Assembly (NCBI GenBank): GCA_034620365.1
Contig: JAQGEQ010000063.1
Location: 34,512 to 98,511 of the forward strand
From: Pegea sp. RAD2-039
Lineage: Eukaryota > Chordata > Thaliacea > Salpida > Salpidae
DNA length: 64,000 nucleotides
Direction of reading: 5' to 3'
Of this stretch, positions 1 to 52,763 are shown piece after piece. Under the pieces are notes generated by a model. It worked only from the letters and a program-made list of their open reading frames with translations, had not been told where the DNA came from and made no database searches. Each line of letters opens with the position of its first letter. Position 1 is the stretch's first letter. Both the position numbers and the translations under genes were made by a program.

Positions 1-290
1 TGAAGATGAAGATAAGATGAAGATGAGGATCAGGTGAAGATGAGGATCAGGTGAAGATGAGATGAGGATCAGGTGAAGATGAGGATCAAATGAAGATGAG
101 GATCAGATGAAGATGAGGATCAGATGAAGATGAGGATCAGGTGAAGATGAGGATCAGGTGAAGATGAGGATCAGGTGAAGATGAGGATCAGGTGAAGATA
201 AGGATCAGATTAAGATGAAGATCAGATGATGAAGATGAGGATCAGGTGAAGATGAGGATCAGGTGAAGATGAGGATCAGGTGAAGACACA
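1..290. repeat. 17-bp tandem array in TEC-kinase intron
   Basis: Tandem copies of gatgaggatcaggtgaa with single-base variants run off the left edge. On the gene strand the array begins about 25 nt inside the 5' splice site of the SH2 exon (gt at 314-315). The same 17-bp unit, in the same orientation relative to transcription, fills a DNAAF3 intron at 48411-49196. Confidence 0.95.
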
Positions 291-3278
291 GATGAAGATT
301 TTAAGATCAACTCACGTTCCTCCTCTAGAAAGAACCGATAAAGTAAATTTCCCTGGTTCTTGTACCGACTTCCTGACCAGGAAAGATCCTTCTCTGTCAT
401 CATGTAGTAGAAACCGCTCAGCGTCAGGTCGCGATACGTCACCAACAAACCATCTAAAAAAGTTTGAAAGAAAAACTTCAAAAGTCACTTTTCACTTTCC
501 AACTTTTTCTAACTTTTCATTTTCAAATGGTTTGAGTTGTCTGAGGAAATTCTCTGGAACAAAACCTTCGTGACCTTTTGAGTTTTGGACCTGCCACCAG
601 TGTGGTCTCGAACTGTCCAGGACTTTGTAGCGTTCACCTTCGACTAGTTCCAGGTCTAATTCAGCTTCAGGCTACAAGAAAAATGATGAGGATCAAGTGA
701 TGAAGATCAAGTGATGAAGATCAAGTGATGAAGATCAAGTGATGAAGATCAAGTGATGAGGATCTAGTGATGAGATTCAAGTGATGAAGATCAAGTGATG
801 AAGATCAAGTGATGAAGATCAAGTGATGAGGATCAAGTGATGAAGATCAAGTGATGAAGATCAAGTGATGAATATCAAGTGATGAAGATCAAGTGATGAG
901 GATCAAGTGATGAGGTTCAAGTGATGAAGATCAAATGATGAAGATCAAGTGGTGAAGATCAAGTGATGAAGATCAAGTGATGAAGATCAAGTGATGAGGA
1001 TCAAGTGATGAGGATCAAGTGATGAGGATCAAGTGATGAAGATCAAGTGATGAAGATCAAGTGATGAAGATCAAGTGATGAGGATCAAGTGATGAAGATC
1101 AAGTGATGAGGATCAAGTGATGAATATCAAGTGATGAAGATCAAGTGATGAGGATCAAGTGATGAGGTTCAAGTGATGAAGATCAAATGATGAAGATCAA
1201 GTGATGAAAATCAAGTGATGAGGATCAAATGATGAAGATCAAGTGATGAAGATCAAGTGATGAAGATCAAGTGATGATGGATCAAGTGATGAAGATCAAG
1301 TGATGAAGATCAAGTGATGAGGATCAAGTGATGAGGATCAAGTGATAAAGATCAAGTGATGAGGATCTAGTGATGAGGTTCAAGTGATGAAGATCAAATG
1401 ATGAAGATCAAGTGATGAAGATCAAGTGGTGAAGATCAAGTGATGAGGATCAAGTGATGAGGATCAAGTGATAAAGATCAAGTGATGAGGATCAAGTGAT
1501 GAAGATCAAGTGATGAAGATCAAATGATGAGGATCAAGTGGTGAAGATCAAGTGATGAAGATCAAGTGATGAGGATCTAGTGATGAGGTTCAAGTGATGA
1601 AGATCAAATGATGAAGATCAAGTGGTGAAGATCAAGTGATGAAGATCAAGTGATGAAGATCAAGTGATGAAGATCAAGTGATGAAGATCAAGTGATGAGG
1701 ATCAAGTGATGAGGATCAAGTGATAAGGATCAAGTGATGAAGACCAAGTGATGAAGATCAAGTGATGAAGATCAAGCGATGAAGATCAAGTGATGAGGAT
1801 CTAGTGATGAGGTTCAAGTGATGAAGATCAAATGATGAAGATCAAGTGGTGAAGATCAAGTGATGAAGATCAAGTGATGAGGATCTAGTGATGAGATTCA
1901 AGTGATGAAGATCAAGTGATGAAGATCAAGTGATGAAGATCAAGTGATGAAGATCAAGTGATGAGGATCAATTGATGAAGATACCTTGAAGTTATACATC
2001 GCAATCATTTCTTGCAATAGATGAGTAACTGGTTGAGGTTGATCACTTAACTGTCTCGCTGAAACAAAAAGACATCAAAAAAATTAAAGAAAATCACTTT
2101 AAAATTACCAGGTGGTAAAGGGGGTGGTTTATCACTGACAGGAATTGGTGGTAATGGTTTCAATTGTGTATTTGAATGGTAATTAACTGGTTGAATTGCT
2201 GGTGAATCATCTTTACATCCAGGATCATTCTTATTAACTGAAAGACAACATTGCCATTTGCCGGTGCTGTAAATTCGGGGGTGGTAACTGGTCTTCAACT
2301 CTTGTTTAACTTCTGCACAAGCTGAAAAGTTGATGATTAATTTGTATTTGTCATCATACGCAGGTTGGTGTAGAAAGTTGGAATAAAAGATTATGTCATC
2401 AAAACTGATTTGTTTCAAAAATTCAAAAAGTTTATAATTTTATAGAAGTTAGTTGAAGATCAAATATTTATAGGTAAAAATCTTAAGTACAAATACAACT
2501 TTCTTTAACTAACTCATAAATTATTTCAATTTATGAAATTAATAAACAAAATTAATGAATTCTTTCACTAAAATTTATTTTTTTTTATATAAAATAGAAA
2601 CTTTGACAGTTCAAGATGTTAAATTGATAGAAATAATTTTTAATGATTCATAAACTATCATCAAAATAATCAAACCATCTTTAATAGCTTTTATCCAATC
2701 TTCTCTATCTTGCTTCGATCTTGCACAACAATATAGATAATACCCATCATGTAAGATCTAGAAAAGATTTGTTCATAAAATGCTTCATTTTCAATCTAAT
2801 TACTTGAAAAGCGCTGGTCCTGTTTAAAGCGTCATCTCCAAGTTCTCCAACATAAGATACTTGACTCAGACGAAAACTTCCTTTAATTTTTCCCCTTTTC
2901 TAAGAAATAAATTTAAAAGTTTAGAATCAATATTTTGTTTATCTGTAAAAAGTTAAAAATTTTAGTAAAGAATATCTCAAAAAAAATTATAATTTAAACT
3001 TTTTTAACCTTACTGACTATTAATTAAAAATTTTATTTTTTTACTAATCATTTATCAAAAGCAAATAAACAAAATACTAATAAATGACTTAATAAAAAAA
3101 CTAATTAAATTATTAGTTAATAAATTACTTCAACTGTTCCTTCATAATAAGAAATCTTTGCACAAGTTAAAACAAAGACACGGTCTTTAAAATTAGTTGG
3201 ACTAAATGTTTTCATTTTCTGTGAACGTTTTGTAATCATTCCAACTTTCAGTTCTTTTTCAACTTTCCAATCTTCCAT
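1..3278 (-). CDS. TEC-family cytoplasmic tyrosine kinase, N-terminal part (runs off left edge)
   Basis: Non-receptor tyrosine kinase of the BTK/ITK/TEC type, which relays signals from membrane phosphoinositides. Exons read on the minus strand: 3129-3278, 2804-2899 and 2676-2757 (PH domain, with KRSQKMKTFSPTNFKDR as in BTK); 2109-2321 (BTK zinc motif: His of YHPR, Cys-Cys of GKWQCC, Cys of DPGC, then proline-rich KPLPPIP and KPPPLPP); 1985-2058 and 496-671 (SH3: ELDLELVEGERYKVLD, PHWWQVQNS, VPENFL); 316-453 (SH2: WFVGDVSRPDAERFL, GSFLVRKS). All phases join cleanly. The catalytic domain must lie left of base 1. The PH plus BTK-motif order separates TEC kinases from SRC/CSK kinases and adaptors. 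The start is the first ATG after an AG acceptor-like site (ctattttag) about 28 nt upstream. Two introns are filled with tandem repeats. The family call is firm; the orthologue is not resolved. Confidence 0.9.
686..1984. repeat. 14-bp tandem array filling a TEC-kinase intron
   Basis: About 90 copies of gatgaagatcaagt, with some variant copies (gaggatctagt, gaggttcaagt) recurring in blocks, which suggests a higher-order repeat. The intron is 672-1984 and the array occupies nearly all of it. On the gene strand the donor gtatcttcatc runs straight into repeat sequence, and the last unit lies about 12 nt from the acceptor ttttcttgtag. It splits the SH3 coding region between MYNFK and PEAELDL. Confidence 0.95.
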
Positions 3279-10200: not shown

Positions 10201-13200
10201 CAAACCTATACTGCCGTTAATTAAAGCTAGTCTTGTGCATATATCTGTAGTTCCTAGTTTAGTTAGTCGATATAACATTTCAAGAGAAGCAAGTACAAGT
10301 TCAATGTCAGTTAAAACCAATGAATTGATAGCAGTAGTGAAGACTTCATCTTCTAAATGAACACACATTAGATTGAGATTACTTTCACGTCGACACAAGT
10401 TGCCAAGGATTTCAAAACCTAAAAATTGAATAAATTAGTTTGGAAATTGATTAGTAAACTTATAGATACCTCGAACTATTTGAAATTTATCCGAAGATGA
10501 GATGCAATTAAGTAGAAATTCGTAAAGGAGATCGTTCATTTGTCGTGAAAGAACATGAAGATCAATCTATGTAAAGTTTTGTGATTTAACTTTTCAAGAT
10601 TTTGATATTCGCTTACATGAACTGAAATATTACTGAAAATGTCAAGACCGGTTTGTTTCAAAGCTGAGTAATCTGAATGTAAACACAGAAAGACGAAATT
10701 AATCATCGGTATATTCTTTGCTAGAAGTGTCACGTTGAAATGTTCGAATGAAAGGTTCAATAAAACCATCGCAATCTGCAAATAAAAAAACTTCTGTTAA
10801 TGTTGATAAAATTGTATTTGTGAAATTATTTCAGTATTTTTAAGCTGGTTTGTTAATTACGAATTGAATTTGTCAAATTGTAATCGACTACGTCTGCTTA
10901 AAGCACCTTCAACCACTGGTGGTCGAGGAGTTTTTACAAGTCAAGGTGCTAGAAGCAAGTGAGTCTTCAGCAACTTCAACCACCAAACACAGGATTTGTT
11001 TACAAGACAAGTTATTATTGACTTGGTGTTGGTGGTCGAGGAGTTTTTACAAGTCAAGGTGCTAGAAGCAAGTGAGTCTTCAGCACCTTCAGCCACCAAA
11101 CACCAGATTTGTTTGTAAGACAAGTTATTATTGACTTGATGTTGGTGGTCGAGGAGTTTTTACAAGTCAAGGTGCTAGAAGCAAGCGAGCCTTCAGCACC
11201 TTCAATCACCAAACACAAGGTTTGTTTGTAAGACAAGTTATTATTGACTTGATGTTGGTGGTTGAGGAGTTTTCACAAGTCAAGGTGCTAGAAGCAAGTG
11301 AGTCTTCAGCACCTTCAACAACCAAACACAAGATTTGTTTGTGAGACAAGTTATTATTGACTTGATGTTGGTGGTCGAGGAGTTTTTACAAGTCAAGGTG
11401 CTAGAAGCAAGCGAGCCTTCAGCACCTTCAATCACCAAACACAAGGTTTGTTTGTAAGTCAAGTTATTATTGACTTGGTGTTGTTGGTCGAGGAGTTTTT
11501 ACAAGTCAAGGTGATAGAAGCAAGCGAGTCTTCAGCACCTTCAACCACCAAACACAAGATTTGTTTGTGAGACAAGTTATTATTGACTTGATGTTGGTGG
11601 TCGAGGAGTTTTTACAAGTCAAGGTGCTAGAAGCAAGCGAGCCTTCAGCACCTTCAATCACCAAACACAAGGTTTGTTTGTAAGACAAGTTATTATTGAC
11701 TTGATGTTGGTGGTCGAGGAGTTTTTACAAGTCAAGGTGCTAGAAGCAAGTGAGTCTTCAGCACCTTCAACCACCAAACACAAGATTTGTTTGTAAGACA
11801 AGTTATTATTGACTTGTTGTTGGTCGAGGAGTTTTTACAAGTCTAGGTGTTAGAAGCAAGTGAGTCTTCAGCACCTTCAACCACCAAACACAAGATTTGT
11901 TTGTAAGACAAGTTATTATTGACTTGGTGTTGGTGGTCGAGGAGTTATTACAAGTCAAGGTGTTAGAAGCAAGTGAGTCTTCAGCACCTTCAACCACCAA
12001 ACACAAGATTTGTTTGTAAGACAAGTTATTATTGACTTGTTGTTGGTCGAGGAGTTTTTACAAGTCAAGGTGCTAGAAGCAAGTGAGTCTTCAACACCTT
12101 CAACCACCAAACACAAGATTTGTTTGTAAGACAAGTTATTATTGACTTGGTGTTGATGGCCGAGGAGTCTTTACAAGTCAAGGTGCTAGAAGCAAGTGAG
12201 TCTTCAACACCTTCAACCACCAAACACAAGATTTGTTTGTAAGACAAATTATTATTGACTTGGTGTTGGTGGTCGAGAAGTTTTTACAAGTTAAGGTGTT
12301 AGAAGCAAGTGAGTCTTCAGCACCTTCAGCCACCAAACACCAGATTTGTTTGTAAGACAAGTTATTATTGACTTGGTGTTGGTGGTCGAGGAGTTTTTAC
12401 AAGTCAAGGTGCTAGAAACAAGTGAGTCTTCAGCACCTTCAACTACCAAACACAAGATTTGTTTACAAGACAAGTTATTATTGACTTGGTGTTGGTGGTC
12501 GAGGAGTTTTTACAAGTCAAGGTGAATTTATCCACAACTTTTACGACAGATGGAAATAAGGTTAGAGGTTGTTACCTGAAGTACTCGTTGTCCTTCATAT
12601 TCCTGAACACCTTCAGCTCGACTTGGTCGAAACAAGAGATTCCTGTTGTAAGGGGGCGTGTGTTGATCTCTACAAGAGCCAGGGAAAATTGCTTCGAGTA
12701 ATCGACGATTAGAAACAGTTTCATTCCAGAACTTTTCAAAGTCATGACCAGTGGACTTCTTCCAGTGCAGACCAATTTCCTTAAGCGACCCTACATCTAG
12801 TAATTTAACAAATTCATCTTCTAATCCAACAACAAATCATCAAACTGACCATCTGATACAATCCCAGCATGTAAGAGCAAAGCATCAAGGATATGTGGAC
12901 AGTTAGGAAGTCGTAGTACATGGCGTGACTCGCCAGACAGTAAGGTGCAGGCGTTGATAGCAAAGTCTACTTCATTAGGTAGACAGGAGATGAGAGCATG
13001 AACTAGCTTGCTATATGAACGTTCATGGGTTGTTGGTTTGTTTTTGCGCCATGTTAGTGAAGAATAGTTTCGATCTGAAAATGAGATCTTGAGATATGAT
13101 GAGGATTAGATGATGATCTGACCGTGAAAGACTCGATAGCGGTTTGAGTCGTGATGACGCGATAGTTCTTCTTCACCGAAAAAGTTAATTCGTTCAAACT

Positions 13201-15199
13201 TTTCGAGATATCTGAAGTCAATAAAAAGTTTTGGTCAAAAATATCATTTAAATAATTTAATTAAGTTGTTAAGTAGTTGAAATAGTTAATCCTCAGCAAC
13301 TTCAACCACCAAACACAAGATTTGTTTGTAAGACAAGTTATTATTGACTTGGTGTTGGTGGCCGAGGAGTTTTTACAAGTCAAGGTGCTAGAAGCAAGTG
13401 AGTCTTCAGCACCTTCAACCACCAAACACAAGATTTGTTTATAAGAGAAGTTATTATTGACTTGGTGTTGTTGGTCGAGGAGTTTTTACAAGTCAAGGTG
13501 CTATAAGCAAGTGAGTCTTCAGCACCTTCAACTACCAAGCACAAGATTTGTTTACAAGAGAAGTTATTATTGACTTGGTGTTGTTGGTCGAGGAGTTTTT
13601 ACATGTCAAGATGCTAGAAGCAAGTGAGTTTTCAGCACCTTTAACCACCAAACACAAGATTTGTTTGTAAGACAAGTTATTATTGACTTGATGTTGGTGG
13701 TCGAGGAGTTTTTACAATTCAAGGTGCTAGAAGCAAATGAGTCTTCAGCACCTTCAACTACCAAACACAAGATTTGTTTGTAAGACAAATTATTATTGAC
13801 TTGGTGTTGGTGGTCGAGGAGTTTTTACAAGTCAAGGTGCTATAAGCAAGCGAGTCTTCAGCACCTTCAACCACCAAACACAAGATTTGTTTGTAAGACA
13901 AGTTATTATTGACTTGGTGTTGGTGGTCGAGGAGTTTTTACAAGTCAAGGTGCTATAAGCAAGTGAGTCTTCAGCACCTTCAACTACCAAGCACAAGATT
14001 TGTTTGTAAGACAAATTATTATTGACTTGGGGTTGGTGGTCGAGAGGTTTCTACAAATGAAGGTGCTAGAAGCAAGTGAGTCTTCAACACCTTCGACCAC
14101 CAAACACAAGATTTGTTGGTAAGACATGTTATCAGTGACTTGATGTTGTTGGTCGAGGAGTTTTTACATATTAAGGTGCTAAATCAATTAATGTAGGTTC
14201 ACAAATACATTTTGCAGGTTTTTAAATTACATGAAACTTTAAATCTCAAAATAGTTTTTATCAAATATAGTTCTTCATTTAAAGTGATATAAATATCAAC
14301 TTTGTAGAATAAAAAGATTCAAGATATATTATATAATGCTAGTTTTTTAAAACTTAGAAACAAATTTGAAAATTACTTGTGATACAGATTTCGAAGACCA
14401 TAACTCAAACTTGCTCCAGATGAATTAAACTTTTCATAGACAAACTCTTCCCATAATTCTTGTTTACAAACCTAACAAGAGATTTTAAATCAAACAAACT
14501 ATCAACTACAACAAGTACTTATGTTTAAAATAAGATTTTTTATATTTGCTGTAAAATAGAAAACTTACTTTTGCATAACCTCCATAAGAAATTACTTTAT
14601 GATATAATTCATGAAGGTCTATTGGTTTGCCGGCTAAGTTTGGATAAAGTGGGTAATTTTTTCTGAAAATGTAATTAATGAAACATTTATAGAAGCTAAT
14701 TAATAAGATTATATGAAAAAATATAAATTAAAAAATAGAAACAGATTTTTATGAAAATAAAAAGAATTAGTTTTAATTATAATTGAATCAATTTAAATTA
14801 GATATATTAAAATCACAAAACTAAATCGATATTAAAAAAGAAGTTTATAAAGTAAAAAATGGAACACCTTAATTTAATGAATAGTTAGAAAGTAAATAAT
14901 ATTTATTGAAAATATAACCAAAAATAGTTATAACAGAATATAAAACAAAATACATTTCAAAAATTATAAAACCCTGATAGATTTTACAAAAACTTTTAAA
15001 GTAATTTCAGTTTATAATTACATAATTCAACAATTATCATTAAATTCTAACATTTTTAATTTCAATCAAATGAAATTTAGTTGGTAAAAATTAAGATCTT
15101 TAAAATACCCAACAAAAAAACACATTTAGTGAAAACTCACCCAGAAGAATGAAGATATTGTTTAAGCTCTTCTAAAAATGAGGCCTTTTCACTGTCCAT
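7298..15199 (-). CDS. ARID2: ARID2 homologue (PBAF chromatin-remodelling subunit)
   Basis: ARID2 is the DNA-binding signature subunit of the nuclear PBAF (SWI/SNF) remodeller. Exons on the minus strand, in order: ARID domain at 15141-15199, 14569-14662 ([19 protein letters not shown]), 14377-14471 and 13133-13211 ([15 protein letters not shown]); armadillo-like region from about 13075 to 12576 ([16 protein letters not shown], ending EGQRVLQ) and in exons near 10775 and 10400; proline-rich exon about 9140-9980; RFX-type domain about 8915-9085 (LYSNLYNEY); then [10 protein letters not shown] at 8402 downward. The C-terminal exons near 7830-7585, 7540-7455 and 7400-7298 match the family end ([29 protein letters not shown]). 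I do not find the pair of C2H2 fingers that vertebrate ARID2 has before this end. A 5'-UTR acceptor (cttgtttcag) lies about 50 nt upstream of the ATG. Confidence 0.93.
7563..7576 (-). promoter_or_regulatory. CTCF-like motif, exact consensus match, in an ARID2 intron
   Basis: The minus strand reads CCACTAGATGGCGC, a full match to the CTCF core CCASYAGRKGGCRS. It begins about 10 nt inside the 5' splice site of an ARID2 exon. Bilaterian CTCF recognises this core; whether this organism has CTCF is unknown. Confidence 0.4.
8421..8762. repeat. Tandem array next to an ARID2 intron acceptor
   Basis: About 14-15 copies of a 22-25-bp unit (ttcaaaattcgatattcaaa plus a variable run of a). It lies in the 512-bp ARID2 intron 8403-8914. 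On the gene strand the array ends in the pyrimidine tract of the acceptor (tttctgtctttgcag). Open frames across it are fortuitous. Confidence 0.93.
9500..9800. repeat. In-frame coding minisatellite (proline-rich) in ARID2
   Basis: Tandem 15-bp units in the ARID2 reading frame encode repeats such as [15 protein letters not shown] and HAPVHQPPV between the armadillo-like region and the RFX-type domain. Because the unit is a multiple of three the frame is preserved. Vertebrate ARID2 also has a low-complexity segment before the RFX domain, but not this repeat. The open frames on the opposite strand are shadows. Confidence 0.85.
10885..12525. repeat. 113-bp minisatellite in an ARID2 intron (about 14.5 copies)
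   Basis: The unit is about 113 bp and contains ggtggtcgaggagttttt, caaggtgctagaag, cttcagcaccttcaacca and cacaagatttgtttgtaa. It lies in intron 10776-12575, which separates EGQRVLQ from [10 protein letters not shown] of the armadillo-like region. Each unit can fold: aggtgct-a-gaag pairs with cttc-agcacct across a 9-nt loop, enclosed by ttggtggt and accaccaa. The recurring 60-codon frames cross unit boundaries with identical starts and stops and are repeat artefacts. Confidence 0.95.
13290..14185. repeat. Same 113-bp minisatellite in a second ARID2 intron (about 8 copies)
   Basis: Identical unit and orientation to the array at 10885-12525, but inside intron 13212-14376, which interrupts the ARID domain between the exon ending at 14377 and the [11 protein letters not shown] exon. 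Several exons of ordinary sequence separate the two arrays, so the unit moved or was copied between introns of one gene. Confidence 0.95.
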
Positions 15200-23459: not shown

Positions 23460-24164
23460 AAATGATGATATTTTATTCAATCATTAAAGTAAAAAGTTAT
23501 TAGTTGAGACTGATTAAGTTTATTTCCATTATTTTATTTGTTAATAGTTTCTTTATTAGTGAGTATTTGATAACTTTATTTATATCTTATATTAATTATA
23601 TTTATTTTAGATCACCAAAAAAATTTTTTTAATTTAAAAAAACTTTTTGAAAATTTGAATTATTATTTAAATTATTTGATGACAATTTCACGAAAATGTC
23701 TTTTTTGGCGTTTTTTATTTTCTGCCGTTTCGCTTCACTACTCGCGGCATAAATAAATTTTAAATTTTCGAACATGCATTTAAATAATCTTAATTTATCT
23801 ATTTTTATTAATTAAGTTTATTTTGCTTTTATTTTTTAAATGTTTTTTAATAATATCAAAGTTTATTTATTTAGTATTTAAAATATATTAAAAGTAACAA
23901 AACGAGTTTTTATAAATTATTTTATTTAATTTAAAGAATTTATAAAAAATGTTTAAAGTTTTCTTTACTTAATTTATTTTTTTTAAATTGTTTTTATTTT
24001 TGTGATTTCCACTTTATTAAATATTTTAAAATTGAATAGAATTAGTTTTCTGTTAGTTGATGTTGTTTTAGAATTAAATAAATCTTTTTATATTTTTTTG
24101 ATTTAAAAAATTATTTTTATGAAATTATAATTTTCATTTATTTTCTATCTTCTCAGATTTATGG

Positions 24165-26573
24165 ATGAAAATGGAATCAATTCAAATGAAATCTCAATTA
24201 AAATTCAATCTTTTAGCTTTAGGATTTGATTTTAAATCTATTTCAAATTCTCAAAATTTTACTTTTGACATTTTAGAAAAACCCAGCAAAAAGATTTTTG
24301 AAATTGTAATTCATTTCATCATTTGCAAAATCAAACCATCTCTAGCTACTAAAAGACTAATACCAAATTGTTCTGATAAAGAAATAGGTGATAGATTTAG
24401 AAAAGCTATTGAAGGAACTCTAACAAATTTAAGAGATGAATTCTCAGATTTTCTAATTCCTAAATTTTCTAAAACACTTCTAAAATCTCCAAAAGGACCG
24501 CCAGTTATTGAACTTTTATTTCAACTTTCTATTTTAGCTCTTTTTCAAAGCTTAGGTGGATATAAAGATTCAAGTATTTTGGTGCCTGTTAAGTTAGATT
24601 CTGACTTGGTAGTTGAACAACTTCATACTTATAAGCTTGCAGCGCTTTCTACTTATAATAATCTGTGTTTTGATATAAAAGAAAATAAAAAAAACCAAAA
24701 TAAAATTAAAAAGTTTCTTGAAGAACAACTTGATAAAAAAAATCAACTTTTGGTGAAGAAATTGAAACTAGAAGAAAGATATGAAAGATCAGTTGAAAGA
24801 AGAGAAGATAAAGTTTTATTGAGTGGAAATGAAATCGAAAAGTTGAAAGAAATTGTTCAGAATTACTGGAATCAAGTTATTGGTGCTGTTGGTTCTACTA
24901 AAAACAAATTTGGAATATTTCAACGAGCTTTAGATGTTTATAAAAGTAAAAGAGTATTAGATGGTGAAAAATTAGTTCCTAAAATTCCTTCAATATTAAA
25001 AGAGAAATTTGAAGTTGAATTATATACAGAAATTGGAGATAAATTCCTTGAAAATGGTTTTGTAGATTTAATCAAGTTACCTTTGTTGTGTAATTATGCT
25101 TTAAAAATGATGAAGAATATTATAGAAGAAACTAATTTTTCTTCTTTATCTTCTAAACCTAATAACTTAGAAGAAGATTTGAAGCAAGGAAGTTATGAAG
25201 TAGATCTTCTTACAAAGATTTTAAAAGATTTAAAAGATCAATTAGAAGATTATGAAGAAAATTCAGAAGCTTTGAAACAGAAACTGGATCATATTTATTC
25301 TGAATCTTATAAACAACTTCAAATGAAATCTATAAATAATTTGAGTAAATCATTTGATCTTTTACTTGTAGATGATCCAATTGATGAAGATGTTGTTAAA
25401 GATGAATATTTTGAAAGTGAATCTTTTAAAGAATCATTAAAAGAGATTGTAGTTGCTCCTGATCAACAAAAATTGTTGGAATATTTAAAAGCATCTGAAA
25501 AAGTAGAAGCTGCTGATACTTTCATGTTCAAGGACTCTGATCTTTCAGAAGATGAATCTGAGCCCTCTAAAACTGATCTCTCTAAAACTGATCTCTCTAA
25601 AACTGATCCTTGTAAAACAGATCTCTCTAAAACTGATCTCTTTAAAACTGATCTCTCTAAAACTGATCCTTGTAAAACTGATTCCTCTAAAACTGATCTC
25701 TCTAAAACTGATCTCTCTAAAACTGATCTCTCTAAAACTGATCTCTCTAAAACTGATCTCTTTAAAACTGATCTCTCTATAACTGATCTCTTTAAAACTG
25801 ATCTCTCTAAAACTGATCTCTCTAAAACTGATCTTTGTAAAACTGATCTTTCAGATGAGGATCTCTCTGATAAAGATCTCTCTAATGAAGATCTCACTGA
25901 TGAGGATCTCTCTGATGAAGATCTAGATGAATTAAAACTTCTAAAAGATGATTTAGAATCTTCATTTAAAGGATGCAGACATCCAGATAATTCATCAGAA
26001 AGATCTTCATCAATCTCTTTAAATGATTTCTCTTCTAAAGATGATCTTTCTTCCTCATCACGTGATAAAGATCGCAAAGACGCGGCTATGAACAAACTAG
26101 CTGATATGATCGTCGAATCGACGTTGAACGATGACGTCACTGATGATAGTTGGTTGCTAGGCGACGTCGAAGGTCTTTATGACGAGGAAGCTTTTAAGAC
26201 TAAGAACAAAATTGAAAGAACTCCGGAGCAGAAATCTTGCTCTTCAAAGATCATGGATCCTTTGATCTTTGAATCATTTGATCAGAAAATTGATCTTCCG
26301 GAGGTTGGGAGCTTATTAGATGATGAAGATTACACTTTTATGGAAGAAGTCTCTTTATCTTCTCCAGAGGAAGTGAACAAAGATGTAGAATCTTGTGAGG
26401 ATGCTCCTTTGATCTTCTTTGACTCCCCTCCAAGCACAAGTCTTGCGTCTGAAGATCAGGATAAAGTATCTTTTGAAAATTGGAAGAAATGTCAAAAAAA
26501 GATTAAATCTAAAAAAGTATCTCGAATTTCGTGGTATAATATTGTACCTGACTCCTGGCATGATAAACAATAA
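24165..26573 (+). CDS. HAUS6: HAUS augmin-like complex subunit 6, copy A (802 aa)
   Basis: Augmin is the eight-subunit complex that recruits gamma-tubulin to spindle microtubules for branching nucleation. Residues 6-110 match the HAUS6 N-terminal domain (LLALGFDFKS, KPSKKIFEIVIHFI, a basic middle, then SPKGPPVIELLFQLS, like SPGGPKFIHLMYHF in human). Residues about 160-400 are charged and helical, probably coiled coil. Residues about 467-565 are tandem LSKTD pentapeptides, then acidic DEDLS repeats and a disordered C-terminus. One uninterrupted exon. A strong acceptor-like tract (tctatcttctcag) lies immediately upstream, then ATTTATGGATGAAAATGG. I chose the in-frame ATG; the slightly earlier ATG is in another frame. 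AATAAA lies about 30 nt after the stop. The gene is duplicated at 39867-42185. Confidence 0.88.
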   Translation: MKMESIQMKSQLKFNLLALGFDFKSISNSQNFTFDILEKPSKKIFEIVIHFIICKIKPSLATKRLIPNCSDKEIGDRFRKAIEGTLTNLRDEFSDFLIPKFSKTLLKSPKGPPVIELLFQLSILALFQSLGGYKDSSILVPVKLDSDLVVEQLHTYKLAALSTYNNLCFDIKENKKNQNKIKKFLEEQLDKKNQLLVKKLKLEERYERSVERREDKVLLSGNEIEKLKEIVQNYWNQVIGAVGSTKNKFGIFQRALDVYKSKRVLDGEKLVPKIPSILKEKFEVELYTEIGDKFLENGFVDLIKLPLLCNYALKMMKNIIEETNFSSLSSKPNNLEEDLKQGSYEVDLLTKILKDLKDQLEDYEENSEALKQKLDHIYSESYKQLQMKSINNLSKSFDLLLVDDPIDEDVVKDEYFESESFKESLKEIVVAPDQQKLLEYLKASEKVEAADTFMFKDSDLSEDESEPSKTDLSKTDLSKTDPCKTDLSKTDLFKTDLSKTDPCKTDSSKTDLSKTDLSKTDLSKTDLSKTDLFKTDLSITDLFKTDLSKTDLSKTDLCKTDLSDEDLSDKDLSNEDLTDEDLSDEDLDELKLLKDDLESSFKGCRHPDNSSERSSSISLNDFSSKDDLSSSSRDKDRKDAAMNKLADMIVESTLNDDVTDDSWLLGDVEGLYDEEAFKTKNKIERTPEQKSCSSKIMDPLIFESFDQKIDLPEVGSLLDDEDYTFMEEVSLSSPEEVNKDVESCEDAPLIFFDSPPSTSLASEDQDKVSFENWKKCQKKIKSKKVSRISWYNIVPDSWHDKQ
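25561..25855. repeat. 15-bp coding minisatellite in HAUS6 copy A (about 19 units)
   Basis: Units of ctctctaaaactgat encode LSKTD, with variants LFKTD, PCKTD and LSITD. The other arm carries about 13 units, which accounts for the length difference of the two proteins (802 and 772 aa). The antisense strand is also open here (repeated ERSVL), a shadow frame. Confidence 0.93.
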
Positions 26574-31099: not shown

Positions 31100-33255
31100 A
31101 ATATCCACAAAAAATTTATACAAAACCTGAAAAATAATTTATTTACTTTTTTAATATTATTGCTATAAGTATATTTATACAAATTTAAGATTTTTAATTT
31201 TATTAAACATAAAAATATTGATGCAAAACTACTTTTTATAAAAATAAATAAATATTATTTAAAATTTTTATAGCAGAATACTAATAAAAAATTAAAATAA
31301 TTTAATTTTATTTAAAATAAAATATAAAAAAATTAGAAAGAAAATTTATAGCAAATTTATTGAACAGTTTTAATTCAATATTTACAGGAAAAAAAAATAA
31401 AATTTAGAAACATAAAATAGAAGAAAAACACTTTCAGAAAATGTAAAATATTCAACCAACTCATATCCTAGTTTATTTATTGATATATAGACATCATAAA
31501 AATACTAAATTTGAAATAATAAAATTCACAGAAAAAAAAAAATACTAAAGTGAATATTTAAATGAAAGCAAACAATATAAAGTAAAAATTATTAAATGCT
31601 AGAAGACAACTTTTATTATAAAAAGTACCGCGAAAGTAATCAAAAATATTTTTGTTTTAAAAAGAAAACTTTTTGTTTAAAAGCCATTTTTACTCATTTT
31701 TACTGTGATTGATTTCTAAATAATATAATGATTTTACATTTAAATAAGCTGAAAAGTATTAATATTCTTGAAGTTTTAAAAATAAATAAATGTTTTGATC
31801 AATTGGTTGTTCAGTTCTTGGCAGTTTTATTACTTTTGCAAGAATATAGTTGATGCATTAGAACAAAAATTACTTAAAATAAAGATTTTTACGGCAGTAG
31901 GTATTTTCTTTTATTTTATGATGTTTAGCTATAAAAAATCTATGTATGACCTACTCTAAAATTATTTTTATTATTTTATTCATTTATTATTTCAGTCAAA
32001 TAAATTCATGAGTTTTAAGTTATACATAGACAATATACGATCATTTTTAATAAGTTTCTTCTGGCCGTTTTATAAAAAAAATTTTCAGTTGCTATAAAAT
32101 ACTGGAAAAAAAATAAAGAATAAAACTTTTTTAAATTAATGTTTGCAAGGTATTTTGAAATACTAACTATACGAGGCCTAGACATTTTTTTCTCCAAATT
32201 AAATTGATTTATCATTGTTTAAAAAATGATCAAAAATTAAAAAAAATTAAGATCACAAAATAATTGATAAAAATCTCAAATCTTTTCTTTAGATGCTAGA
32301 CAAAAAAACACCGGTAAATGTAAACATTAATATAAAATTTGTTTGCAAATATATCAGTGATTAGTTGTTAGCTTTTGTTTAGACTATTTACTTATTGGTA
32401 AATATACAAAAAGATTATAATTATTTTGGACATCTGTAAAACAATTAACTAATTGAATAAACTACTAATATCTATTCTTTTGAAAATAAGTTCTGATACA
32501 AAAAAGAAAAGGTAATTTATAAAAAAACCAAATTGTGATGGTTTGTCGCAAAATTATACACCTTGCAAAGGTTTAGGGGTTTCAGTTTCGAAATGTTGTT
32601 TATGTTTTTAGGAAAATCAGTTTGTTGATTCCAATATATTTTATTGTTTCTATTTTTTGTGTTATTTCAGAAAATGATTTTTTATTACTTTATTTAAAAT
32701 ATTTGTTAAATCTATTTGTTATTTATTTTTATTAAATGAAACTTTTTTTTCTTTTTTATTTGTCAAGTTTTAACTATTTAAATTTTTGTTTATAGCTAAA
32801 ATAGGTTTATTATTGTTTTTTTATCTAGACTTTTAATTAAAAACAGAAATGCTTTTATTTTTTGTTAAATATTTTTATTGTTAATTTGATATTTTAGTGT
32901 TTTAGTATAAGATTTATTTTTTTATTAATTTTCTGTTGTGTTTTTTTGGTGACTTGACATTAAAATAAAATTTTATTTTAATTAATATCTTGGTAATTTT
33001 TTATGATAATTTTTATATTTATTTAAAGTATAAAAATTATACTAATATCAAGTTAGGAATAATTTTATTTTTTTAGTAATTTAACAAAATTATATTTTTT
33101 TTATAATTTTTATATAAGAAATCATGTTTTTGAATATAATAGATAATTATCTTAAATATTTTTTTATATAATATCAAAGTTACAAAATTTTATTTCCTCA
33201 TAATTTAAACTAAACATTTTCAGTTAAATAGAACAATTTTTTATGAATAAAAATC
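31100..33255. other. Divergent intergenic stretch between NDC80 and PICK1
   Basis: Very AT-rich, with no supported gene. It should contain the promoters of NDC80 (leftward) and PICK1 (rightward), but I see no specific element. An acceptor-like aaacattttcag near 33224 precedes the PICK1 ATG. Confidence 0.5.
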
Positions 33256-34425
33256 ATGTTTGAGGCGGATGAATATGTGATGGAAGAGGATAAGTTAGGA
33301 ATGACAACTTTATCAGGAACAGTTACCTTAAAAAAAGATGAAAAAAACTTAGTTGGTATCAGTATAGGTGGTGGTTCACCAAGATGTCCATGTTTATATA
33401 TTGTTCAAGTCTTTGATAACACACCAGCAGCTGTTAACGGTCAACTTGCTTCTGGAGATGAAATTGTTTCTATTAATAATAAATCAGTTAAAGGATTAAC
33501 TAAAAGTCAACTTGCAAAAATGATACAAAGTAGTAAAGTTGAAGTGAAAATTAATTACAATAAGCTTCATGCTGACCCAAAACAAGGTAAAACTTTAGAT
33601 ATTGTTTTAAAAAAGATCAAGCATCGGTTAGTCGAGCAAATGGATTCTGGAACAGCTGATGCCTTGGGCTTGAGTCGCGCGATTCTGTGTAATGATGTAC
33701 TTGTCAAACGATTACAAGACATGGAACGAACTGGGCAGGTTTATAGAGGTCTTATGCAGCATGTTAAGAAGATTTTAAAGTCTTATTTTGGTTTGTGTAA
33801 AGTTCATAGGGAATTTGGTGATGTATTTTCAGTTATTGGTATCCGTGAACCACATGAAAATGCCAGCGGGGCTTTTTTAAAGTTTAGTGAATCTCATAGA
33901 GACTTTGAAAAAGCTGGATTTAAACTTCTAAAGACTCTTAAACCGATGCTTAGTGATCTTAACACATATCTCAATAAAGCAATCCCAGATACGAAGTTAA
34001 CAATCCGAAAATATGCTGATGTCAAATTTGAATATCTTTCCTACTGTCTTAAAGTAAAAGAGTTAGATGATGAAGAATATAGTTACGCTGCTCTTCAAGA
34101 ACCTTTATATCGAGTTGAAACTGGTAATTATGAATACAGATTAATTTTAAGATGCCGCCAGCAAGCAAGATCACAATTTGCTAAATTGAGAAAAGACGTT
34201 ATGGAAAAATTAGAGCTTTTAGACAACAAACATGTTCAAGACATTGTCTTCCAACTACAACGTTTTGTGTCGGCTGTTTCTGATTATCATAATGATTGTC
34301 ATAAAAGTATTAGTACAAGTGATGTGTTCCCGATTGAAGTTGATCTTTCAAGCTCTACTTTTGAATATGAAAAGAAAGATCGATTTGATGACCCTGAATT
34401 TGTTGAAAATAATGAAAATTATTGA
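33256..34425 (+). CDS. PICK1: PICK1 homologue (PDZ-BAR protein, 389 aa)
   Basis: PICK1 binds C-termini of receptors and kinases through its PDZ domain and curved membranes through its BAR (arfaptin-type) domain, acting in vesicle traffic. Residues about 20-105 are the PDZ domain with the carboxylate-binding loop LVGISIGGG and CPCLYIVQVFDNTPAA. Residues about 140-355 are the BAR domain (GTADALGLSRAILCND, FGDVFSVIGIREP, TYLNKAIPDTKLTI, VKFEYLSYCLKVKELDDEEY, GNYEYRLILRCRQ). All of these closely match vertebrate PICK1. The protein stops at ENNENY, without the long acidic tail of mammalian PICK1 (415 aa in human). One exon. A short upstream frame (ATG at 33243) overlaps the start and could damp translation. 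Confidence 0.97.
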   Translation: MFEADEYVMEEDKLGMTTLSGTVTLKKDEKNLVGISIGGGSPRCPCLYIVQVFDNTPAAVNGQLASGDEIVSINNKSVKGLTKSQLAKMIQSSKVEVKINYNKLHADPKQGKTLDIVLKKIKHRLVEQMDSGTADALGLSRAILCNDVLVKRLQDMERTGQVYRGLMQHVKKILKSYFGLCKVHREFGDVFSVIGIREPHENASGAFLKFSESHRDFEKAGFKLLKTLKPMLSDLNTYLNKAIPDTKLTIRKYADVKFEYLSYCLKVKELDDEEYSYAALQEPLYRVETGNYEYRLILRCRQQARSQFAKLRKDVMEKLELLDNKHVQDIVFQLQRFVSAVSDYHNDCHKSISTSDVFPIEVDLSSSTFEYEKKDRFDDPEFVENNENY

Positions 34426-35015
34426 TGTCTTTTGGAGCTTGTTTGGATGTTATACAGAACTATTTGTTTAAATGTTAGCTTCTTTTTTATCTTTTATTTT
34501 TAAATTGAAATAATTTAATATTTTATAATTTTCATCTAATATATTTACTGGTAAGTTATCTGATTTTAACTTTTATGAAATTGTTATTTGGATTTTATTC
34601 ACTTTATCATTGGAAAATATTTCATGATTTACAATTTATTCAGTTTATTTTCAGTTTATTCATTTATTTTATTACTTGTTTGTTTCTAAAATTATAATTT
34701 TTAATCAGAAATTTTATTTCTAAATCTGCATGTACTTTATATTTTTATTAGCTTATTCCATTATTCAGACTGTTTATTGTACTTTGGATGTTATATATAT
34801 TGTACTAGTTGTTGAAATTATTTTGCACATATTTAGTTGTCATTAAATAGTGTTAATATTTATAAATGTTTATTAATTAACCAATCATTAAATTAATTTT
34901 TATCAACAATTCTGCAATAACTTAAAAATTATTTATATTGGTGTAAATCATAATATAAATTATTCCAAATGTTGTATTTAGAATATCAATAAGTTTCAAC
35001 AGAAACTTGTAAAAT
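34426..35015. other. Intergenic stretch between PICK1 and TBCK
   Basis: 590 bp of AT-rich DNA between two genes on the same strand. Nothing recognised beyond an acceptor-like gtttcaacag at about 34995-35004, 11-12 nt before the TBCK ATG. The close same-strand spacing would also fit polycistronic transcription resolved by trans-splicing; no direct evidence. Confidence 0.45.
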
Positions 35016-45429: not shown

Positions 45430-45625
45430 TAATTGCAACCAATCAGCAACCATCTACCAACCAATCAGCAACCATCTACCAACCAATCAGCAACCATCTA
45501 TCAACCAATCAGCAACCATCTAACAGCCAATCAGCAACCATCTACCAACAAATCAGCAACCATCTAACAACCAATCAGCAACTATCTACCAATCAATCAG
45601 CAACCATCTAACAACAAATCTAGAC
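45430..45625. repeat. 22-bp tandem array with CCAATCAGC boxes
   Basis: About 8-9 units of accatctaccaaccaatcagca, starting at the outer edge of the right inverted-repeat arm. Each unit holds AACCAATCAG, a full match to the NF-Y consensus RRCCAATSRG. The left arm's outer flank has no such array, so the array marks the junction with unique DNA. Confidence 0.9.
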
Positions 45626-47554: not shown

Positions 47555-47925
47555 TCCATGGAAACGATGCTTGGTTGGCAACAAGCAACCGTGGTTTCCA
47601 TGGAAACGGTGCTTGGTTGACAACAAACAACCGTGGTTGCCATGAAAACGATGCTTGGTTGGCAACAAGCAACCGTGGTTGCCATGGAAACGATGCTTGG
47701 TTGGCAACAAGCAACCGTGGTTGCCATGGAAACGATGCTTGGTTGGCAACAAGCAACCGTGGTTGCCATGGAAACGATGCTTGGTTGACAACAAGCAACC
47801 GTGGTTGCCATGGAAACGGTGCTTGGTTGACAACAAACAACCGTGGTTGCCATGAAAACTTTGTCTAGTTGACAACAAGCAATGTGGTTGCCATGGAAAC
47901 TTTGTCTGGTTGACAACAAGCAAAA
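47555..47925. repeat. 42-bp tandem array of X-box-like palindromes
   Basis: About 8-9 units, each with GGTTGCCATGGAAACG and TTGGCAACAAGCAACC. GTTGCCATGGAAAC differs by one base from the palindromic RFX X-box GTTGCCATGGCAAC, and GGCAAC and AGCAAC are perfect half-sites. The array lies 300-670 bp beyond the stop of DNAAF3. Frames open across it on both strands are repeat artefacts. Confidence 0.92.
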
Positions 47926-48225: not shown

Positions 48226-51200
48226 TCAGGGTTCGTTACTAACTAATAAGAATTTAGCATAGCAACCAGTTGTAGATGGTTGCTGAGTGGTTTCTGTTTG
48301 TTGAAGTGGTTCGAAGCCGACTTGAGCCGCCATCTCTGTGATCCGTTCTTCGAAGTTTTTGACTTTAACTTTACTAAGATCCAAAATATATCTGCAAAAG
48401 ATGAGGTTAGAAGATGAAGATCAGAGGATCAGGTGAAGATGAGGATCAGAAGAAGATCAAGATCAGATGAAGATCAGATGAAGATCAAGATCAGATGAAG
48501 ATGAGGATCAGATGAAGATAAGGATCAGGTGAAGATGAGGATCAGGTGAAGATGAGGATCAGATGAAGATGAGGATCAGGTGAAGATGAGGATCAGGTGA
48601 AGATGAGGATCAGGTGAAAATGAGGATCAGATGAAGATGAGGATCAGGTGAAGATGAGGATCAGATGAAGATGATGATCAGATGAAGATGAGGATCAGAT
48701 GAAGATGAGGATCAGGTGAAAATGAGGATCAGATGAAGATGAGGATCAGGTGAAGATGAGGATCAGAAGAAGATGAGGATCAGGTGAAGATGAGGATCAG
48801 ATGAAGATCAGAGGAAGATGAGGATCAGATGAAGATGAGGATCAGGTGAAGATGAGGATCAGGTGAAGATGAGGATCAGGTGAAGATGAGGATCAGGTGA
48901 AGATGAGGATCAGATGAAGATGATGATCAGATGAAGATGAGGATCAGGTGAAGATGAGGATCAAGTGAAGATGAGGATCAGGTGAAGATGAGGATCAGAT
49001 GAAGATGATGATCAGATGAAGATGAGGATCAGGTGAAGATGAGGATCAGGTGAAGATGAGGATCAGGTGAAGATGAGGATCAGGTGAAGATGAGGATCAG
49101 GTGAAGATGAGGTGAAGATGAGGTAAAGATGAGGATCAGATGAAGATGAAGATCAGATGAAGATGAGGATCAGATGAAGATGAGGATCAGATGAAGACTC
49201 ACTTGACTAATTCAACTGTAAGTGTTGCTTTTGGTGAAATAATTTCTTTGAGGTTAGGTTGAAGAGCAACAGCCATACTAGAAGATATGAAATTAAAAAA
49301 ATATCAACCAATCACAAGCAACCAATCACAAGCAACCAATCACAATCAACCAATCACAATCAACCAATCACAAGCAACCAATCACAAGCAACCAATCACA
49401 ATCAACCAATCACAACCAACCAATCACAATCAACCAATCACAAGCAACCAATCACAAGCAACCAATCACAAGCAACCAATCACAATTAACCAATCACAAT
49501 CAGCCAATCACAATCAACCAATCACAATCAACCAATCACAATCAACCAATCACAATCAACCAATCACAATTAACCAATCACAAGCAACCAATCACAAGCA
49601 ACCAATCACAATCAGCCAATCACAATCAACCAATCACAACCAACCAATCACAATCAACCAATCACAATCAGCCAATCACAATCAACCAATCACAATTAAC
49701 CAATCACAAGCAACCAATCACAAGCAACCAATCACAATTAACCAATCACAATCAACCAATCACAATCAACCAATCACAATCAACCAATCACAATCAACCA
49801 ATCACAATCAACCAATCACAAGCAACCAATCACAATCAACCAATCACAAGCAACCAATCACAAGCAACCAATCACAATCAACCAATCACAATCAACCAAT
49901 CACAATCAACCAATCACAAGCAACCAATCACAATCAACCAATCACAACCAACCAATCACAATCAACCAATCACAACCAACCAATCACAAGCAACCAATCA
50001 CAAGCAACCAATCACAAGCAACCAATCACAATCAACCAATCACAAGCAACCAATCACAATCAACCAATCACAACCAACCAATCACAATCAACCAATCACA
50101 ATCAACCAATCACAAGCAACCAATCACAATCAACCAATCACAAGCAACCAATCACAACCAACCAATCACAAGCAACCAATCACAAGCAACCAATCACAAG
50201 CAACCAATCACAAGCAACCAATCACAATCAACCAATCACAACCAACCAATCACAATCAACCAATCACAATCAACCAATCACAATCAACCAATCACAAGCA
50301 ACCAATCACAATCAACCAATCACAATCAACCAATCACAAGCAACCAATCACAATCAATCAATCACAATCAACCAATCACAATCAACCAATCACAAGCAAC
50401 CAATCACAATCAACCAATCACAACCAACCAATCACAATCAACCAATCACAACCAACCAATCACAAGCAACCAATCACAAGCAACCAATCACAAGCAACCA
50501 ATCACAATCAACCAATCACAAGCAACCAATCACAATCAACCAATCACAACCAACCAATCACAATCAACCAATCACAATCAACCAATCACAAGCAACCAAT
50601 CACAATCAACCAATCACAACCAACCAATCACAATCAACCAATCACAACCAACCAATCACAAGCAACCAATCACAAGCAACCAATCACAAGCAACCAATCA
50701 CAATCAACCAATCACAAGCAACCAATCACAATCAACCAATCACAACCAACCAATCACAATCAACCAATCACAATCAACCAATCACAACCAACCAATCACA
50801 ATCAACCAATCACAACCAACCAATCACAAGCAACCAATCACAAGCAACCAATCACAAGCAACCAATCACAATCAACCAATCACAAGCAACCAATCACAAG
50901 CAACCAATCACAATCAACCAATCACAAGCAACCAATCACAATCAACCAATCACAACCAACCAATCACAATCAACCAATCACAACCAATCACAATCAACCA
51001 ATCACCTTGCAGATACAAAGACATGATTGAAGAAGTTTTTAAATCTGCTTCTTTCATGAAGTTGTCCAAATGAACTTCCAGGTAAGAAATGAACGCAGAC
51101 TTCTTCACAGGGGATCGGCGCTATGATTGGACGAAAGAATTTCAATTTCAACCAATCACAGACGAGATATACAAACCATAAAACTCTCTACTTCCAGCTT

Positions 51201-52763
51201 TTTTAACAAACTCTTCATCGTGATCTTTATCATCAACTTCCATTCTTTTTACATCTTCTTCATCTTCTGATGACCCTTTATAAGGTAGTTGAGTTGCTAG
51301 CTCATAAAACATCGACATCAGATTATGTGAAGTGATACTTGTAGCTGACTAGAACGTTTCTGATTGGTTAATTCGAATCGTCGAGTCTTACTAACATGAA
51401 TCGGTTTCCCGTTGGCAGTTTTTAGAACTTCTTTATCATCTGACTCGACGCCAAAAGCGATATATGGACCAGTAACCATATCACCATAGTAACCACGGTA
51501 ACTAACGCGTTCACCATTATGCTGTAAATATCAATAAATGGAAGTTTTTGTTGTTTCAAAACAACTAGCAAATCAAATGCAGACTTTGAAACTTGTGCAA
51601 ATAACAACCAACCGATTTAATAGTGACATCTGTGGCTAATGTCTTGTTGATTTGATCATATACTCCCTCTCTTGTTTCAAATGATATTCCCTTTTCTCTC
51701 CATCGAAGGTATTCGGGTTTAGTAATCATGGTTGCCTGTGAAGAGCCACAATAACATGTTTGTTTCTAGCGGTTGTTGTCGACAAAACAATTGGATGAAA
51801 AAAAAGCTTTTTGTGGTTGGTAGTAATGAGCATGACGTAGACAAACGCGAATAGAGGGCAGACAAAACAAATATTTTTCGCGTTGAAAACGCGATGAAGT
51901 GTAACGCGGTTACAAACCCCATTTTCATGAAGTTTCATCATTAAATCCCAATCAAAAGAACCGTTTCTACAATCATAACGACGAGCTAGATATTTCCGAA
52001 GTCGATTATCCCATAAATTCAAGATGTTGAAGTTATCTGGGGTCCTTGTCCGCCAGAATTTGAACAAATTTTCTAAATTATCGCGTTCTTTGAACTGTAA
52101 AGGTCACGTGGTTATTTAAAAAAGCTTCTAGAAGCTTCTAACTAACTTTTAATTGGGACAGGTTTATGGTTGGCATGCGTTCGTCAGCATAATCTAAATC
52201 CGTGATCATTTCAATAAACAAATTGGATTTTTCTTCTAAATATTTCATGGTGTTGTTTCGAATTAGGGTATTTCCGTATAATTCCATAAATAAATCAACT
52301 TTTTCTATTAATTAAAAATCAGTAATTTGGGTTTTTTTTCGATTTTTTTAGTTACCTTGTAATCCAATTTTTTTAGGAGGTTCTAACGCGAGAGTTAGAA
52401 GAAGAAGATGACGTCCGATTAGCTCAAAGTTGTTCTCGACAACGTAAATCTGCGAAGAGGTTGTTTTTTGCGAAAATATGCAAATTAGGGTAATTACTGA
52501 CGTGTATTTTTCGTTTTTTGTGTCTTGATCTCTGAGCCATAGTCTTGAGGATATGACGACAGTCTCCAGCTCCTATCATAAGGATGTTGATGACATCTTC
52601 TTCTTCTTCGGATACATCCTTAGAATGTTGTGAGATGATATCTGAGAAGTTTTAATGAAATACTGAAATATGATTGGACGAAATTACCGTTTTGAAAGTC
52701 AAGGGCGGGACTAAACCCCCACAAAGTCGCGCTGCCCCACCCGTCGCAATTCGGAGTAGACAT
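48226..52763 (-). CDS. DNAAF3: DNAAF3 homologue (axonemal dynein assembly factor)
   Basis: DNAAF3 (PF22 in algae) acts in the cytoplasm to preassemble axonemal dynein arms, so the organism makes motile cilia. First exon 52688-52763 encodes MSTPNCDGWGSATLWGFSPA (human: GSVSWWGLSPALD). Later exons carry INILMIGAGDCRHILKTMAQ, YVVENNFELIGRHLLLLTLA, KKIGLQ, NILNLWDNRLRKYLARRYD and SFDWDLMMKLHENG, all matching the family. Downstream exons include 51006-51120 (CEEVCVHFLPGSSFGQLHER), 49203-49277 (ALQPNLKEIISPKATLTVEL) and 48226-48391 (YILDLSKVKVKNFEERITEM to the stop). Introns at 51121-51191 (71 nt) and about 51 nt upstream are tiny, whereas 48392-49202 and 49278-51005 are filled with tandem repeats. 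An AG (acgtgatcag) lies 8 nt before the ATG. Confidence 0.93.
48411..49196. repeat. 17-bp tandem array filling the last DNAAF3 intron
   Basis: About 45 units of gatgaggatcaggtgaa with variants. The intron is 48392-49202 (811 bp). On the gene strand the donor gtgagt is followed at once by cttcatctgatcctc, which is repeat sequence, and the array ends in the acceptor region cctcatcttttgcag. Same unit as at 1-290. Confidence 0.95.
49305..51004. repeat. 14-bp CCAAT-box array filling a DNAAF3 intron (about 120 copies)
   Basis: Units of aaccaatcacaatc with variants caagc, caacc and caatt. The intron is 49278-51005 (1728 bp). On the gene strand the donor itself is repeat-like: gtgattggttgatt equals one unit. 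Each copy carries AACCAATCAC, a 9/10 match to the NF-Y motif. The 579-codon open frame on the plus strand arises because 14-bp units give a 42-bp reading cycle with no stop, and it lies inside an intron of a real gene on the other strand. Confidence 0.96.

Follow-up and report, generated by a model that had tools for sequence, protein, structure and literature searches.

Two genes of this locus carry long segments made almost entirely of a single minisatellite, which raises the question of whether such segments are introns and, if they are, how a tandem repeat came to fill them. We analyzed a stretch of 64,000 nt (the window; C66:34512-98511 of a 105.7-Mb, 387-contig assembly) with a GC content of 28.2%, in which arrays occupy 8.7 of 64 kb, a richer content than that of nine 10-kb stretches. 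All four arrays named in the original prediction (684-1982, 48424-49197, 49303-51005, and 1-286) were recovered by Tandem Repeats Finder.

Table 1. Repeat arrays and introns of the window, numbered from its first position unless contig C66 is named
Feature	Position	Strand	Basis
Donor side of array intron within SH2 domain	1..315	minus	SH2 complete once joined
17-nt array at the left edge of the window	1-286, on to C66:33947	minus	Tandem Repeats Finder
Tiny intron between SH3-SH2 exons, 60 nt (alternative donor 495 gives 42 nt)	454..513	minus	Candidate sites; SH2 match begins at junction
Array intron within SH3 domain, BTK/TEC-like kinase gene	donor 1984, acceptor end 672	minus	SH3 continuity and candidate sites
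14-nt minisatellite, sense unit CTTGATCTTCATCA, 92.7 copies, 91% matches	684..1982	minus	Tandem Repeats Finder
113-nt array, probably in an intron of an ARID-domain gene (tentative)	10917..12524	minus	ARID E 2.1e-7, hand-joined ORFs
Second 113-nt array, between ORFs of the ARID-domain gene	13293..14181	minus	Tandem Repeats Finder
DNAAF3 array intron	48392..49202	minus	PF14740 across junction
17-nt minisatellite, sense unit ATCTTCACCTGATCCTC, 45.9 copies	48424..49197	minus	Tandem Repeats Finder
DNAAF3 array intron, donor GTGATTGG inside first repeat unit	49278..51005	minus	PF14740 across junction
14-nt minisatellite, sense unit TGTGATTGGTTGAT, 121.9 copies	49303..51005	minus	Tandem Repeats Finder
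DNAAF3 upstream tiny or short introns, candidates of 52, 182, 91, 47, and 56 nt	51121..52146	minus	Best-scoring pairs; alternatives exist

The six array introns of the BTK-like and DNAAF3 genes rest on protein homology. On the minus strand, the exons on both sides of 672-1984 make up one SH3 domain, and those around the left-edge array make up one SH2 domain (PF00017, profile positions 1-77 of 77). To the left of the window (locus L037), the BTK-like gene has two further array introns, with 21-nt and 27-nt units. The exons around the 27-nt array form one kinase domain (PF07714, profile positions 1-257 of 258), and the fourth array intron of the gene has the acceptor CTTCATCTGTAG, followed by GACTCG from the SH2-kinase linker, with the frame open. 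The joined SH3-SH2-kinase chain gives one unbroken alignment to BTK over residues 2-441 (4xi2_A, 422 bits, E 2e-125), ABL1 being the runner-up family at 351 bits. Likewise, DNAAF3 exons joined over both long introns match the DNAAF3 C-terminal domain (PF14740) from position 8 to 302 of 303 (E 6.7e-98). Domain continuity in the predicted proteins confirms the segments of both genes as introns.

In intron 1984..672, AAG precedes the donor GTATCTTCATC, the array runs from +2, and the acceptor TTCTTGTAG lies 12 nt past it. A spacing of about 12 nt before the acceptor had been proposed; it holds here but not for the other introns, where the array ends 25 nt (DNAAF3 intron 51005..49278), 32 nt (DNAAF3 intron 49202..48392, donor gap 5 nt), and 36 nt (BTK-like intron 315..-600, acceptor about -600, donor gap 29 nt) from the acceptor. 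The claim that the donor of DNAAF3 intron 49278-51005 is itself a repeat unit was borne out. Candidate small introns in these two genes are tiny, as expected, but spread beyond the proposed 51-71 nt, measuring 42-106 nt according to the pair chosen, with one of 182 (or 152) nt. All six introns of more than 200 nt resolved in the two genes are arrays, and four unit lengths (14, 17, 21, and 27 nt) are represented.

Other repeats and genes of the window provide the setting. A 42-nt array of about nine copies adjoins the DNAAF3 3' end (47552-47923); its unit begins with GTTGCCATGGAAAC, which we take to resemble the RFX X-box consensus, and it stands beside a cilium-assembly gene. A 22-nt minisatellite of the CAACCAATCA type, akin in sequence to the DNAAF3 14-nt unit, occurs on three contigs (45436-45620 of the window, L019 14-224, and L041 3-458). 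For the 113-nt array at 10917..12524, a candidate donor, GTAACA, lies about 51 nt off. Two long ORFs, 24123-26570 (plus strand) and 39870-42227 (minus strand), are inverted and alike in sequence; the former matches HAUS6_N (E 4e-16) and contains a coding 15-nt minisatellite (pentapeptide repeats) with CTGATCT. Non-LTR retrotransposon-like ORFs for an endonuclease and a reverse transcriptase lie at 57329-60399 on the minus strand, and pieces like 52.9-53.2 kb and 57.2-57.7 kb were found again in other loci. Long single ORFs are also present, PDZ-arfaptin (PICK1-like) at 33247-34422 and kinase-TBC-rhodanese (TBCK-like) at 35013-37532, and these intron-poor genes neighbor the repeat-filled ones. 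Low GC and such long single ORFs might hint at a glass sponge, since Aphrocallistes vastus is rich in single-exon genes (12 409 of 19 578), but this is no more than a lead.

To describe how full such introns are, 27 array introns were curated, with the donor placed in 26, the acceptor in 24, and both in 23. The array takes up 88.3-99.5% (median, 98.2%) of the 23 introns with both sites placed, in line with the original description of introns filled to their splice sites. As these introns were picked for plausible splice sites near array ends, the gaps are bounded by the search: 0-40 nt on the donor side (median, 8; 26 introns, 7 of them with a gap of 0-4 nt) and 2-36 nt plus one of 148 nt on the acceptor side (median, 13.5; 24 introns). 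The unique residue, donor and acceptor gaps together, has a median of 21 nt in 23 introns and is below the shortest candidate tiny introns (42-47 nt), which implies that the array supplies or replaced part of the intron and was not just added to it. When the introns are removed at the chosen sites, the frame stays open in all 22 testable cases, compared with 20% of random GT/AG pairs; the 23rd begins too close to the end of its locus for the frame test and showed no open frame.

An edge test that is independent of this curation used 63 arrays of at least 150 bp, with 110 usable edges, from loci that were fetched by array similarity and so are not random, together with the nine 10-kb stretches (chosen at round coordinates) and L037. 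A strong outward donor lies within 20 nt of 19 of the 110 edges (P = 6e-10), the background being 2.4% at random positions (n = 14,890) and 2.9% in the flanks (n = 7,484), so that for these array-fetched loci the expected clustering of array edges near donors is upheld. Strong donors per 10-nt bin from the array edge number 10 and 9, then 0-5. Leaving out the window, L037 (the BTK-like gene), and one duplicate haplotype gives 13/76 (P = 3e-7). The nine stretches (90 kb) contain four arrays of at least 100 bp, one of which fills an intron (L035 6552-8479); the other three, with periods of 18, 18, and 36, are probably coding.

The repeat families are common to many unrelated genes. Arrays akin to the query array lie on many contigs (at least 73 matches), and related matches in the assembly number 47 for the DNAAF3 14-nt array, 31 for the 21-nt array, and 19 for the 27-nt array. 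In the main family, characterized by the 11-nt core TGATCYTCATC, splice sites were recognized at one or both ends in 18 of 27 arrays examined. Its host genes, identified by flanking exons, include an amino-acid permease, a MYST acetyltransferase, a dynein heavy chain, a plexin, PPIP5K, and a helicase, as well as a WD40 protein (L014; HIRA-like by eye, below the Pfam cut-off) and a Ser/Thr kinase (AKT-like by eye).

The main family also has a preferred orientation. For 12 main-family arrays from 10 genes, including the BTK-like gene and DNAAF3, strand could be taken from Pfam or domain continuity, and in all 12 it is the coding strand that is T-rich (P = 5e-4 per array, 0.002 per gene). The same orientation is seen beside PARP-like (L018) and fn2 (L016, just below cut-off) neighbors. 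Genome-wide, GTAAGT is followed by the core within 16 nt in 87 sense and 40 antisense cases, with none in backward controls. Among these, 25 of the 87 sense matches are one identical string and 18 of the 40 antisense matches look like array interiors; without both, the ratio is 62:22. The repeated string, GTAAGTTTGATCTTCATC, a multicopy element that combines a donor with the array core, is found mostly on small contigs (C172, C179, C376, and C377, among others). For the core followed by TTTCAG within 20 nt, there are 132 sense matches (places taken from the first 100 of 132) and 39 antisense, with 3 sense and 194 antisense in backward controls; as this last count exceeds the 39 matches, the antisense search appears to meet an unrelated repeat. 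The orientation bias is thus strong but not absolute.

Per kilobase, main-family arrays have medians of 0 AG and 58 YTRAY in the sense orientation, compared with 142 AG and 0 YTRAY in antisense. This does not extend evenly to eight arrays of other families, where the sense strand has fewer AG in five and more in three. Counts of AG are 8 in 26.7 kb of main-family intron arrays and 5 in 8.1 kb of those without recognized splice sites, plus one degenerate array with 31; in arrays without homology, strand was set by splice scores, which themselves favor pyrimidines. Selection against AG inside intron arrays was set aside, as arrays without recognized splice sites are equally AG-poor, the degenerate one excepted. 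As these too are nearly AG-free, a filter on orientation when arrays were established is a simpler reading than continuing selection.

One array has been copied from one gene to another. On C221, a 21-nt array that is 91% related to the array of a BTK-like intron lies beside 108 nt (96% identity) comprising the end of that intron plus 48 nt of the next coding exon, and C220 has 57 nt of the copied segment at 100%. Since the copied exon part encodes the conserved SH2-kinase linker, the copying went out from the BTK-like gene; the genome-wide search found the segment in no further place. In the host gene, a donor, GTGAGT, follows a TPR-like exon (consensus TPR 6e-7; Hsc70-interacting protein 2e-4), although this 34-residue exon has no Pfam match, and the acceptor at C220/C221 was not seen. 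The array measures 2256 nt on C220 and 1284 nt on C221. As their flanks are 95-100% alike, the two contigs are taken as one locus and presumed to be haplotypes. This is the one copying event found; other arrays of one family have no shared flanks. An all-against-all comparison of array-masked loci revealed shared flanks only for the BTK-like/TPR-like segment and for dispersed-repeat pieces. Those pieces recur in the window and in the nine 10-kb stretches, and transposon flanks at arrays were discarded as an explanation.

To probe where the units come from, we compared the arrays with tiny introns, of which 126 were predicted (median, 54 nt); the predictor returned 130 against 24 in reversed sequence, or about 18% decoys. 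In these 126, GATCYTC occurs 11 times in sense and once in antisense (0.3 expected), at a median of 20 nt from the acceptor, and CTTCATC occurs 15 times in sense and never in antisense (0.7 expected). The core of the 27- and 33-nt families, TGACGTCA, which we take to be a CREB-type palindrome, is present in 11 of 126 and is among the commonest words. The enrichment stems mainly from genes fetched for their arrays: CYTCATC is found in 13 of 67 of their tiny introns versus 1 of 41 in an unbiased sample (window plus the nine 10-kb stretches), and GACGTCA in 12 of 67 versus 1 of 41 (P = 0.016 for each). The core words are rare in the unbiased sample, where GATCYTC has 3 sense and 0 antisense occurrences (0.22 expected). 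Those 41 tiny introns lend no support to a general role for the array core as the branch site in this species, and YTNAY is hardly enriched in predicted tiny introns (208 versus 189 shuffled). Some predicted tiny introns carry two or three core copies (two in one of 52 nt, for example), which is what early array stages should look like. Unit lengths (14-17 nt) vary by gene, and so do the linkers after the 11-nt core; the varying linkers favor repeated birth of arrays from a shared core.

We suggest that these are ordinary spliceosomal introns, originally of about 50 nt, in which a minisatellite would have taken over the interior. Some short motif resident in tiny introns, TGATCYTCATC in the main family, would duplicate in tandem, the array then growing, presumably by slippage or else by unequal exchange, and some arrays with their neighborhood would be copied as DNA between introns of different genes. 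Growth and homogenization would stop at the bases required for splicing, namely, the donor hexamer and, at the other end, the final 10-30 nt including the AG, and halting at the donor hexamer would make the array appear to begin at the donor. The main family may be tolerated in sense because its unit is pyrimidine-rich, AG-free, and resembles a branch site, a role it might also play; being AG-free, the array could reach any length and still introduce no false acceptor. A reversed array would bring in about 140 AG per kb along with purine-rich, enhancer-like words. Selection would be the cause of both orientation and boundaries. We consider this account probable, if only just: slippage makes arrays grow out of motifs in the intron, DNA copying spreads them, and splicing sets their limits and orientation. 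A bolder version, in which copied seeds and arrays form a self-spreading, orientation-locked intron filler of splicing-neutral, AG-free modules, selfish in nature and setting intron size in a compact genome, is conceivable but rather doubtful.

The original prediction held instead that each tiny intron expanded independently by tandem duplication seeded at its own splice donor. In 7 of 26 introns, the donor is part of the array or no more than 4 nt away, the donor of DNAAF3 intron 49278-51005 is a perfect unit, and donor 12-mers match their own array best (means of 8.27/12 versus 7.25/12 for other arrays, P = 5e-5); acceptor 12-mers resemble theirs weakly (P = 0.07), and exon 12-mers do not (6.23 own versus 6.24 other, P = 0.59). 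The donor signal, however, comes from those introns in which the first unit overlaps the donor (start within 4 nt, 7 of 26). Among the 19 introns whose donor gap is wider (at least 5 nt), the non-array bases on the donor side resemble their own unit no better than others (0.598 versus 0.582, P = 0.15), and seeding at the donor, which may apply to about 7 of 26 introns, was rejected as a general rule. Seeding does not predict the same families in many genes or a copying event with flanks, and the core words of tiny introns lie about 20 nt from the acceptor. We therefore regard independent donor seeding as unlikely.

Introners are related sequences that lie flush with splice sites in many genes and in one orientation. 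The arrays share these properties, reaching up to the donor and the acceptor in many unrelated genes. They could be repeat-bearing mobile elements of this kind, which bring splice sites along when they insert and so give rise to new introns. Yet beyond the one copied segment there are no shared flanks, terminal sequences, or conserved full-length element, and comparison of the array-masked loci turned up no near-identical introns that recur from gene to gene with ends of their own. The gene-to-gene variation in linkers and unit lengths likewise points to array growth, not insertion of a unit intron. In addition, two BTK-like array introns apparently lie at positions where human BTK also has introns, which would make them old introns. 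An introner-like origin is consequently improbable. To much the same degree, we doubt that a function preserves the arrays, for instance that of splicing enhancers, many-branch-site buffers, or expression timers. Orientation bias and AG-free, branch-like units would suit such roles, but several families with unlike units fill introns alike, array length differs nearly twofold on two near-identical contigs, and a filter against the harmful orientation accounts for the bias without any benefit. General abundance of minisatellites, some in introns by chance, is very improbable, for although 9 of 27 main-family arrays examined lack recognized splice sites and probably coding arrays of period 18 or 36 occur too, it is contradicted in this sample by the edge enrichment, the homology-backed cases, and the orientation bias.

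On the favored account of motif duplication, copying, and limits set by splicing, these genes would provide a concrete route from introns of about 50 nt to introns of 1-3 kb without transposons, and the boundaries and orientation of the arrays would make splicing constraints legible in DNA. Given the nearly twofold length difference on two near-identical contigs and the copying between genes, the process could be followed within one species. Gene prediction may fail at repeat-filled introns in such genomes.

The original prediction knew of no named class for such introns, which is not correct, as two close precedents are already in print. In amphioxus, genes that are intact (Adh3, the globins BflGb6 and BflGb9, and PGBD5) carry mirages, tandem repeats of minisatellite type at their splice boundaries, with splicing reported as normal, units of 10-72 nt in Adh3 and of 150-160 nt in the globins, and length varying by haplotype (PMC3087553, PMC3902484). 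The arrays here are similar in adjoining the exon-intron boundary (7 of 26 start no more than 4 nt from the donor) and in differing in length between presumed haplotypes at one locus (2256 versus 1284 nt). As described there, however, mirages duplicate the boundary with exon sequence in the unit, whereas here exon bases are unlike the unit (P = 0.59); the arrays here, moreover, make up nearly the whole intron, belong to families found in many genes, and have a preferred orientation. As the defining exon content is absent, we do not file the feature as a mirage, though it works much alike.

The second is sequence stuttering on avian dot chromosomes, in which tandem blocks locally fill introns between intact exons, simple repeats reach a median intron coverage of 7-93%, splice sites can fall inside blocks, and length varies; the chromosomes are GC-rich, and a local and partly exonic origin is reported for the repeats (PMC12954441). 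Here too, introns are mostly tandem repeat and exons are intact (88-99.5% array; frame open in 22 of 22). Unlike stuttering as so described, the window has 28% GC, the units are short, common to many genes, and non-exonic, and 12-mers of adjacent exons match their own array no better than other arrays (P = 0.59). With regard to the local origin reported for stuttering, shared families and the one copying event argue against it here, while differing linkers and two-copy tiny introns argue for it. The literature searched, which left out most subscription papers, did not contain the exact pattern, and three things look new relative to the known systems: repeat families common to many unrelated genes, the preferred orientation of the main family, and the copying of an array, along with BTK-like intron and exon sequence, into a TPR-like gene where its length differs between presumed haplotypes. 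The feature is real, and amphioxus mirages and avian stuttering are its nearest relatives.
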